Part shown: piece after piece, positions 11,516-59,629 of the stretch
Position numbering within the stretch: the first letter of the stretch is position 1
Layout of the letters: the number at the start of each line of letters is the position of its first letter
From: Shewanella psychromarinicola
GTDB lineage: Bacteria; Pseudomonadota; Gammaproteobacteria; Enterobacterales; Shewanellaceae
Direction of reading: 5' to 3'
Assembly: GCF_003855155.1 (NCBI RefSeq)
Contig: NZ_CP034073.1
Location: 3,348,001 to 3,412,000, forward strand
Length of the DNA: 64,000 bases
Made by a program: the position numbers and the translations under genes
Notes under the pieces: generated by a model
Databases searched by the model: none
What the model was told of the DNA's origin: nothing
Seen by the model: only the letters and a program-made list of their open reading frames with translations

Positions 11516-11763
11516 GCAGTCGTACTTCAACACGACCTAAGCCGTTAGATAGGGTTGAAACTTGCCTTTAATGAGCCATTCAAGTATGTCATATCTTAGT
11601 CGCTTGATCTTTGTTAAGGGAAGATCATTATTTCAACAACTTGTTTGAACTTAATAGCTTAAGCGCCCCAATGACATCGCGTCATTCATCATATGGGTAT
11701 AAAAACACATAACGATACTGATGTATTTTTGTTTATTGATGTGATCTATTGATTAAAAAATAG

Positions 11764-11802
11764 ATAAAAAAATGGCCCAAAACTATCCAGTTGTTTTGGG
11801 CC
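11764..11802 (-). terminator. Minus-strand rho-independent terminator, probably that of rsmF before IS insertion
   Basis: Arms GGCCCAAAAC (11774-11783) and GTTTTGGGCC (11793-11802) form a 10-bp stem with a nine-base loop. The A-rich run at 11764-11770 becomes a T-run on the minus strand. With the IS removed it lies roughly 240 bases downstream of the rsmF stop. Confidence 0.65.
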
Positions 11803-12007
11803 TAGGGAAAGGGCTCGATTAAGAGCCTTGCGCTACTGCTGAGGCATCATAAGAGTGCTTAAGATGCCAAAGACTGAATAAATCATTAATTAACTATAGT
11901 CAGACTTATTGAGTTTTGCATAAAAATTAATCAACAATGTTGGTTTTGGTCTGTTTTTTATCGCAAGATTTTGATTGTAAATGCTTTATTAACCCTAGCT
12001 GATGTGA

Positions 12008-12019
12008 TGGTCTCCTCCC
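12008..12019 (+). repeat. Left subterminal inverted repeat of the IS
   Basis: TGGTCTCCTCCC is the exact reverse complement of the copies at 12069-12080 and 13322-13333. The following CAATACGG also occurs next to the right repeat in direct orientation (13316-13323). Confidence 0.85.
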
Positions 12020-12068
12020 AATACGGCATCGATGTGCCATGATTGAAGTTGTTACACACAATCAAAAT

Positions 12069-12080
12069 GGGAGGAGACCA
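12069..12080 (-). repeat. Internal third copy of the IS inverted repeat, doubling as the transposase ribosome-binding site
   Basis: GGGAGGAGACCA ends two bases before the transposase ATG at 12083, so its GGAGG is correctly spaced to act as Shine-Dalgarno. It can pair with the left repeat at 12008-12019, which would hide that site in any transcript entering from the left flank. Confidence 0.75.
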
Positions 12081-12082
12081 AA

Positions 12083-13096
12083 ATGAAGATTACAACAATA
12101 GGGCTTGATATTGCAAAAAGATTTTTTCATGTTGTTTGCTGTAATAAGCAGGGTCGGTTAATTAACAAGAAAATGTTAACAAGAGCGCAAGTATTAGCTT
12201 TCTTTCAAACACACCCATCCTGTTTAGTTGCTTTAGAAGCCTGTGCAACGTCTCATTATTGGGCAAGAGAAATACAACAGTGTGGGCACCAGGTAAAACT
12301 TATTCCACCTCAACATGTAAAAGCCTTTTTAATTGGCAACAAAAATGACTATAACGACGCCTTAGCCATTGCTGTCGCGGCTAACCAGCCACATATTAAA
12401 AGTGTGGGAATAAAGTCGATAGAGCAACAAGATAATCAAGCACAGCATAAAGCACGCGAGTTGGCGGTTAGGCAAAGAACGGCATTATGCAACCAAATAA
12501 GAGGATTAATCGCTGAATACGGTATTGCGTTAACCCAAGGTGTAAACAATATACGTAAAAGTATCCCTCTCATGCTAGATGATGAGGCCTCGCCATTATC
12601 AGGGGCGTTTAAAGCCATACTTAGGCAGCTACAAAGCCAATTAACTGCATTAGATACGTGTATCGAAGCCTATAGCCAATTGATTGTTGAAGCAGTAAAG
12701 CGCAATGATATTTGTCAGCGAGTTCAAACCATACCAGGATTTGGCCCTATGGTATCGAGTGCTTATTTTAATGAAGTGGGTAATGGCAGTCACTATCGAC
12801 GAGGCAGGGATGTTTCTGCTTCCTTAGGTATCGTTCCCCGCCAGCACAGTAGTGGGGGTAAAGAGACGTTGCTAGGCATAAGTAAGCGAGGGAATAGTTA
12901 CTTACGGTGTCTGTTAATCCAAGGAGCAAAGGCTGTGGTATCAAGAGCTGGAACGAAAAAGGATAAATTAAGTCAATGGATAAACCGGCTTGTTCAAACT
13001 CGGGGGCATAACCGAGCCTGCGTTGCTTATGCCAACAAAATGGCGAGAATGGCTTGGGCTATTACCGTCTCAGGAGAAGATTATTCAGCAGAATAA
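12083..13096 (+). CDS. IS110-family (IS1111 group) DEDD transposase
   Basis: RNA-guided recombinase of the IS110 family, 337 residues. The RuvC-like N-terminal half shows the DEDD set: D in GLDIAK (residue 9), E in ALEACATSHYW (about 53), and the two D of NDYNDALA (about 91-95). The C-terminal Transposase_20 domain starts near VQTIPGFGPM (about 215). It contains the conserved GIVPRQHSSGGKE segment that carries the nucleophilic serine in this family. No frameshift or stop is seen. Confidence 0.95.
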   Translation: MKITTIGLDIAKRFFHVVCCNKQGRLINKKMLTRAQVLAFFQTHPSCLVALEACATSHYWAREIQQCGHQVKLIPPQHVKAFLIGNKNDYNDALAIAVAANQPHIKSVGIKSIEQQDNQAQHKARELAVRQRTALCNQIRGLIAEYGIALTQGVNNIRKSIPLMLDDEASPLSGAFKAILRQLQSQLTALDTCIEAYSQLIVEAVKRNDICQRVQTIPGFGPMVSSAYFNEVGNGSHYRRGRDVSASLGIVPRQHSSGGKETLLGISKRGNSYLRCLLIQGAKAVVSRAGTKKDKLSQWINRLVQTRGHNRACVAYANKMARMAWAITVSGEDYSAE

Positions 13097-13321
13097 GTAA
13101 ACCGCTCTTCAAAGAATTGCGTGGGTAGAGCAAAACGATGACATAACAGGTAAAACCTGCATATTGAAAACCTGATAACCTCAAAGAGCGAAAAGCCCGA
13201 CGAGCTGATAAGGACGATATGCGCGTAATACATCGAGGTCAGAAGCCAATAGCTTCATTAAAAGACCGTATATATGACAGCAATCCTGTCCCTGTTATCG
13301 ATGAGTTATACCTTGCAATAC
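13097..13321 (+). ncRNA. Candidate bridge/seek RNA region of the IS
   Basis: In the IS1111 group the guide RNA is encoded between the transposase stop and the right end. This 225-base stretch has no coding frame. It can form a 7-bp stem CGCTCTT (13103-13109) with AAGAGCG (13184-13190) enclosing a hairpin CAGGT-AAA-ACCTG (13147-13159). TAACCTCA at 13176-13183, just 5' of the closing arm, is the exact complement of right-flank TGAGGTTA (13338-13345). AGCTGAT at 13203-13209 equals left-flank AGCTGAT (11997-12003). Both are placed as target guides would be. The true RNA ends cannot be read from sequence. Confidence 0.6.
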
Positions 13322-13333
13322 GGGAGGAGACCA
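13322..13333 (-). repeat. Right subterminal inverted repeat of the IS
   Basis: GGGAGGAGACCA, exact complement of the left copy, lies three bases inside the inferred right end. Confidence 0.85.
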
Positions 13334-13354
13334 TATATGAGGTTAATTAGTGTG

Positions 13355-59448: not shown

Positions 59449-59457
59449 GGCGGACAT

Positions 59458-59540
59458 CTTGTCGGAGTGCCATTATGGCTGAGACCGTTTATTCGGGATC
59501 CGTTGAACCTGATCAGGCTAGAACCTGCGAAGGAAACAAG
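59458..59540 (+). promoter_or_regulatory. TPP riboswitch (THI element)
   Basis: Thiamine-pyrophosphate aptamer upstream of thiC. The conserved strings are present in order: GGAGTGCC, GGCTGAGA, TGAACCTGATCAGG and CCTGCGAAGGAA. Helix P1 forms between CTTGT (59458-59462) and ACAAG (59536-59540). Binding of TPP should lower thiC expression. About 220 bases separate the aptamer from the thiC start, and the switch mechanism probably lies there. Confidence 0.95.
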
Positions 59541-59629
59541 CGTAATAATCATGATTATTGAGGAAGATAAATAAAGTATTAACAACAGAATAAGTGATGC
59601 TTAATCCCGGGTCTATTTATCGGTTTTGA

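Follow-up and report, generated by a model that had tools for sequence, protein, structure and literature searches.

The 64,000-nucleotide stretch of the Shewanella psychromarinicola genome analysed here (the window) contains an insertion sequence (IS) whose non-coding 3' region repeats bases from both sides of its own insertion site. This raises the question whether the region encodes an RNA that leads the transposase to its target. We consider it very probable (about 0.93) that the element is a member of the IS1111 group with an intact transposase gene and that a seekRNA (bridge RNA) encoded in its 3' non-coding region guides the transposase to this site. What was read directly from sequence comprises the element's ends and gene, the agreement of guides and flanks in this copy and in relatives, a covarying fold and the end-repeat used as landing site. 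Coordinates are window positions, and features lie on the plus strand unless stated otherwise.

The element, its gene and its copies

The element (12000..13337) is 1,338 bp in length and features perfect 13-bp sub-terminal inverted repeats, ATGGTCTCCTCCC on the left (12007..12019) and GGGAGGAGACCAT on the right (13322..13334), which is within the range of 11-13 bp for the IS1111 group. Its outer ends are inferred from the rule given for IS1111 ends in PMC11187229, according to which the repeats are followed outwards by 7 bp on the left and 3 bp on the right, here TGATGTG (12000..12006) and ATA (13335..13337). The pattern [TC][AG]ATGNN / ATA recurs in 54 of the 55 elements with defined ends, so that both extensions are regarded as part of the element. 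A non-coding stretch 3' of the transposase gene, another trait of the group, comprises 225 bases from the stop codon to the right repeat.

The transposase gene (12083..13096) is intact and codes for 337 amino acids. The protein contains the domains DEDD_Tnp_IS110 (PF01548) and Transposase_20 (PF02371) and matches NF033542 with an E value of 8.8e-91. The RuvC-like DEDD domain and the C-terminal PF02371 domain expected of an IS110/IS1111 transposase were identified by domain matches; the G--P----SG motif can be read as GIVPRQHSSG. Two solved chains, ISCro4 and IS621, match the protein by sequence, in both cases across the C-terminal part.

A second full copy (copy 2) was found in the host genome at G000:C1:4171319-4172664 and differs by a single base within the element. 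Both full copies are inserted in the same motif and in the same orientation, and the genome additionally harbours one right-end and one left-end fragment. A near-identity search of 72,556 plasmid records yielded no match to the element. Matches to the small RNAs SdsR/RyeB (minus strand) and SraC/RyeA (plus strand) are located at 11763-11906 and are followed, 93 bases further right and 5' of SdsR, by the start of the IS. The window also contains a TPP riboswitch match at 59453-59552.

Guide segments, flanking sequences and predicted RNA fold

The top-strand guide TAACCTCA (13176..13183) is the exact reverse complement of the right flank TGAGGTTA (13338-13345), with 8 of 8 bases matching, as an earlier note on this DNA had stated. 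The bottom-strand guide CGAGCTGA (13201..13208) has the same sense as the left flank plus TGA and agrees with CTAGCTGA at 7 of 8 positions. The note had instead given a left match of seven bases, AGCTGAT, at 13203-13209; it is identical to 11997-12003, but its last T belongs to the element's own left end. The spacing of 19 bases between the two stretches was confirmed, while the proposed overlap by one T has to be replaced by an overlap by TGA. Two target-strand matches are therefore present that overlap in the target, with the top-strand match located 5' of the bottom-strand match, which is the order described for IS1111 elements in PMC11187229.

A search for relatives yielded 166 elements, of which 79 distinct loci were kept; together with the two own copies, 81 loci were examined for ends. 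A repeat pair of the ATGG type (ATGA in one case) was found in 55, while 26 were left out as they had no pair, a pair unlike the element ends or a pair with another start. From the 55, we removed two whose right ends occur in tandem and six truncated by a contig end, which gave 47 elements; another three had fewer than 8 right-flank bases, so that 44 remained. The transposases of the relatives are 70-92% identical to that of the window element. The non-coding regions were aligned without reference to the flanks, and the guide slots were then read by column.

Across these 44 elements, 267 of 352 top-strand slot bases agreed with the right flank of the element itself, where permutation gave a mean of 134.2 (sd 8.8). 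For the part of the bottom-strand slot that corresponds to the left flank, five bases per element, the agreement was 193 of 220 (permuted mean 67.9, sd 8.2). Each total was reached by none of 20,000 permutations, corresponding to a z value of about 15; the relatedness of the elements is only partly removed by these permutations. The relation was also observed within sub-clades, where the counts refer to those six top-strand bases that vary and to the five bases from the left flank. The nine closest elements gave 51/54 and 37/45, respectively (reached by 4 and 9 of 20,000 permutations), 17 further elements gave 76/102 and 76/85, and 18 gave 68/108 and 80/90 (0 of 20,000 for each of the latter four values). 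When the right flank was slid by one base as a control, the top-strand total was still above the permutations (135/352 compared to 96.4), which we attribute to rows with a one-base misalignment; the remaining five flank slides were near or below the permuted values, none being clearly above.

The match is not perfect in every element. With a 1-nt shift allowed, at least 7 of 8 top-strand bases matched in 35 of 44 elements, at least 4 of 5 left-flank bases in 37 and both in 28, which leaves nine below the former and seven below the latter value. Left-flank mismatches are evidently tolerated, as the window copy matches at 4/5, copy 2 and L010 at 3/5 and L011 at 2/5. Unchanged guides beside different flanks had been named in the earlier note as an observation that would speak against a guide function; copy 2 touches on this on the left (3/5), whereas its right flank is unchanged (8/8). 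Taken as a whole, the bottom-strand slot agrees slightly better with the own left extension (303/352) than with the right flank (283/352), the two differing in the last three bases. Since these bases fit the own left extension somewhat better, fewer than eight bases of the slot may read the target.

A consensus fold of 35 sequences comprises 23 pairs, 19 of which show at least one double change. Both target guides are unpaired in it and flank a small hairpin within one closed loop. This predicted target-binding loop (13159..13222), to which single-sequence folds also point, is closed by the stem 13159-13166/13215-13222 and contains an inner CCT/AGG stem (13171-13173/13211-13213). The earlier note had placed the first guide just 5' of a stem arm; the hairpin between the guides (13186..13198) is indeed located there, with an A-C mismatch at one of its four pairs in the window copy. 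Single-sequence folding gave z values of -2.84 for 13140-13245 and -1.92 for 13118-13300, and in the minimum-energy folds of the window copy the two guides pair with each other over three bases.

A second stem-loop with the arms GGTC/GACC and GAAG/CTTC (13237..13267) is located between two predicted donor guides. One of them, TACATCG (13229..13235), would pair with the left extension, and the slot tracks this extension across clades (227/308 bases compared to 195.0 permuted). The other, ATATATGA (13270..13277), has the same sense as the right end plus core; its last bases track the first two right-flank bases in 89 of 94 cases (47 elements), compared to 69 of 94 for the left extension. A second loop matching the element's own ends is a feature of bridge RNAs, in which one RNA contains a target loop and a donor loop (PMC11208160), and is found here with a weaker signal than that of the target guides. 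The predicted fold follows this bridge RNA plan, combined with the guide order of the IS1111 elements in PMC11187229.

These results allow alternative readings of the matches to be weighed. For a single copy, chance matches of this length in a 225-base region, in which short words recur, are not negligible one by one, as the earlier note had pointed out. However, slots defined by a flank-blind alignment fit the respective flanks in 44 elements that occupy many different sites, and coincidence, rejected by the permutation tests unless the relatives are unrepresentative, is left with practically no probability. It is thus the relatives, not the window copy alone, that bear out the note's expectation of more than chance, and the guide-flank alignment it had proposed as a check, carried out on these 44 elements, strongly supports a seekRNA or bridge RNA. 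The matches could also reflect DNA-level homology or a capture of target bases by the element, since sequence matches alone do not separate RNA from DNA pairing. This is very unlikely, given that the guides are separate, of opposite sense and located in an open loop, within a fold that shows compensatory changes, and that RNA derived from the non-coding region co-purified with the transposase and was essential in four IS1111 elements and one IS110 element (PMC11187229).

The position of the junction was also contested. In the earlier note, the element was removed at the ATG shared by both junctions, leaving the empty site AGCTGATGAGGTTA. As ATG is common to both junctions, the two copies alone are compatible with this geometry, and the bottom-strand slot likewise fits the left flank plus the first bases of the left extension (303/352, as above). 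Against it stand the extension pattern in 54 of 55 elements, the right flanks of several relatives, which start without TG, and the frequency of candidate sites in the host genome. Lacking the extra bases, the site TTAACCCGAGCTSAGGTTAA was found 57 times at 56 places with up to 3 mismatches, compared to 0 for the reversed-pattern control, whereas the form corresponding to the note, TTAACCCNNNNTGATGAGGTTAA, occurred 2 times compared to 3 for its control. A crossover at ATG was rejected on the extension pattern and these counts and is extremely improbable. With ends located 7 bp (left) and 3 bp (right) beyond the 13-bp inverted repeats, the empty site should read AGC joined to TGAGGTTA, and the counts point in the same direction. 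It is therefore most probably CCCTAGC joined to TGAGGTTA, or, written longer, CCCTAGC joined to TGAGGTTAATTAG, and the uninserted sdsR-rsmF interval should read TTAACCCTAGCTGAGGTTAATTAG. Visual inspection of the eight nearest loci of the sdsR region (L087-L094) revealed no empty orthologous site; L090 continues through the interval without the motif, and L087 has two end-repeat copies elsewhere in the stretch.

The landing site and its use from both strands

When the left half of the target, TTAACCCTAGC (11989..11999), is rejoined with the right half, TGAGGTTAA (13338..13346), the site differs by 1 mismatch in 20 from a dispersed 20-bp repeat, TTAWCCCGAGYTGAGGTTAA. An IS982-family element carries this repeat at its ends, as do MITE-like repeats of roughly 200 bp. 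The target site of the window element would be TTATCCCGAGCTGAGGTTAA. With up to 1 mismatch, the motif was found in 68 of 129 genomes of the genus and the control in none. Among 29 motif loci retrieved from the host genome, 11 (7 distinct pairs) are accompanied by another copy, in many cases a weaker one, at a distance of 167-198 bp; such pairs are interpreted as the ends of a MITE-like repeat. Dispersed repeats of this kind in G000:C1 (e.g. L127, L128, L131 and L142) are about 200 bp long with near-palindromic ends of 20 bp. The Colwellia maritima genome with locus L008 features five end-repeat pairs spaced 983-984 bp; the only one that was read (L154) brackets an IS982-family transposase gene (NF033520, PF13612). 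No intact relative of this transposase was found in the host genome with the Colwellia query, which gave nine matches of 27% identity and one fragment of 32 residues. A literature search combining Shewanella, MITE and IS982 found no paper.

The bodies of these repeats are still present at several insertions. Copy 2 has a MITE-like body on its left flank, an IS982 body adjoins L008 (93% over 205 bp), L002 and L008 have a repeat body on the left, and L044 and L009 have a MITE-like body on the right. The flanks of the window copy match neither the MITE nor the IS982 body, indicating an insertion into a solitary end-repeat. L117 and L118, from the same genus, share their flanks with the Shewanella loci L044 and L009.

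The strand that is read differs between relatives. The rejoined sites of L001, L002 and L008 correspond to the plus strand of the end-repeat and are joined after its base 11 (0-1 mismatches). Those of L007, L009, L012, L013 and L044 correspond to its minus strand, where the junction follows base 14 (0-5 mismatches); for L012 the assignment is based on the site, as its guides were not read. Bases 12-14 form the core common to both readings, with TGA on one strand or the other. In L007, L009 and L044 the non-coding region is kept relative to the window element (94-96% identity upstream and 88-90% downstream of the guides), while the guide segment, with 50-56%, is not; L008 kept both guides and has a changed hairpin. 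The rejoined sites of L010, L011, L015 and L017 are unrelated to the end-repeat (9-10 mismatches). By eye, those of L016, L031, L060 and L061 and those of L037, L042 and L048 resemble additional repeats or hairpins, such as GTAGGT joined to TGGG and inverted arms around RGGA joined to TG. The end fragments L003 (G000:C1:125831-125974) and L004 (G000:C1:3300898-3300991) in the host genome are of the opposite-strand type; the bottom-strand guide of L003 resembles those of L007 and L009, and L004 has the left flank TTAACC.

We infer that the guide pair was rewritten in response to a G/C polymorphism of the end-repeat. Exact-pattern counts for TGA/TCA were 18/2 (G000) and 35/23 (G130) in genomes with the TGA-reading type, and 1/23 (G131), 6/13 (G097), 7/6 (G031), 4/0 (G129) and 0/0 (G132) in those with the opposite type. 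That the resident core variant fits the guide type of the IS is only partly borne out, since G129 is contrary to it, G031 even and G132 silent.

Transposase expression and relation to known systems

If the ends are joined as a circle, a -10-like box is formed at the junction, reading TATAAT in 22, TATGAT in 21, TACGAT in 6, TACAAT in 5 and another sequence in 1 of the 55 elements. In the window element, TGATGTG together with ATA completes this box, and TTGCAA (13313..13318), found upstream in 49 of 55 elements, would be the -35-like half of the predicted promoter; the spacer is the best of 16-18, and the counts stand without a shuffle control. Such a box would explain why the terminal extension is constant. 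The ends at 12000 and 13337 imply a circle junction of ACCATATA joined to TGATGTGATGG; the crossover at ATG would yield a TGA-less junction, CATAT joined to ATGTGATGG.

A third copy of the inverted repeat, GGGAGGAGACC (12069..12079), covers the ribosome-binding site of the transposase gene and ends 3 nt upstream of the start codon. In the leader of 45 of the 55 elements, the element's own repeat is found again with 9 or more of its 11 bases, compared to an expectation of 0.5 for shuffled leaders. The left repeat (12007-12019) and the third copy (12069-12079) are predicted to form a leader stem of 13 bp, in which the ribosome-binding site is essentially never unpaired; it is 13-17% unpaired if the RNA starts at 12013-12014. 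The third copy is thus predicted to bury the ribosome-binding site. A term look-up in the main texts of PMC11187229 and PMC11208160 gave nothing on such a hairpin, and a search limited to titles and abstract openings found no paper on it.

By analogy with the two 2024 studies (PMC11187229 and PMC11208160), the junction promoter of the circular form would drive both the transposase gene and the RNA transcribed from the 3' non-coding region. One loop of this RNA would pair with both target strands across the TGA core and the second with the element's own ends, and the transposase would recombine the circle into the site in one orientation without duplication. Insertion within an end-repeat would be expected to harm the respective IS982 or MITE copy.

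The seekRNA elements of the IS1111 family reported in PMC11187229 are ISEc11, ISPa11, ISKpn4 and ISPst6. The window element shares with them the DEDD transposase, the 3' non-coding region, the sub-terminal repeats with 7-bp and 3-bp extensions, the guide order and the junction promoter. Natural re-aiming, as for ISEc11 and ISXne4 (PMC11187229), is seen alike in the relatives analysed here. The target differs, and in the re-aimed relatives here the repeat and its core stay the same but are read from the other strand; moreover, the RNA was shown for those elements and is predicted from sequence here. IS621 of the IS110 type likewise combines target and donor loop in one RNA and has a related C-terminal transposase part, whereas its RNA is encoded 5' of the gene instead of 3' and the sub-terminal repeats are much longer here (PMC11208160). 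Judged by the title of Partridge and Hall (2003), IS4321 and IS5075 are also IS1111 elements landing in the terminal inverted repeats of another transposon; these are ends of Tn21-family transposons, whereas here they belong to an IS982-family element and to MITE-like repeats. The element is a new member of a kind of system described in 2024.

Taken together, the comparison provides an independent confirmation, from sequence alone, that IS1111 guide pairs follow the landing sites. The relatives form a natural series of related transposases with different guides, which shows what changes and what may mismatch upon re-aiming. The termini of another transposable element serve as landing sites for an RNA-guided transposon lineage, which enters them on either strand, so that strand choice can be tested directly by swapping the guide pair. 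It is conceivable, though we hold it only tentatively, that sister lineages read the end-repeat of a rival from opposite strands over the same 3-bp core, with guides rewritten following its G/C polymorphism, and that in these elements a third repeat copy keeps the transposase mRNA locked. If true, the strand switch would be a case of reprogramming that arose naturally as two selfish elements contend with each other.
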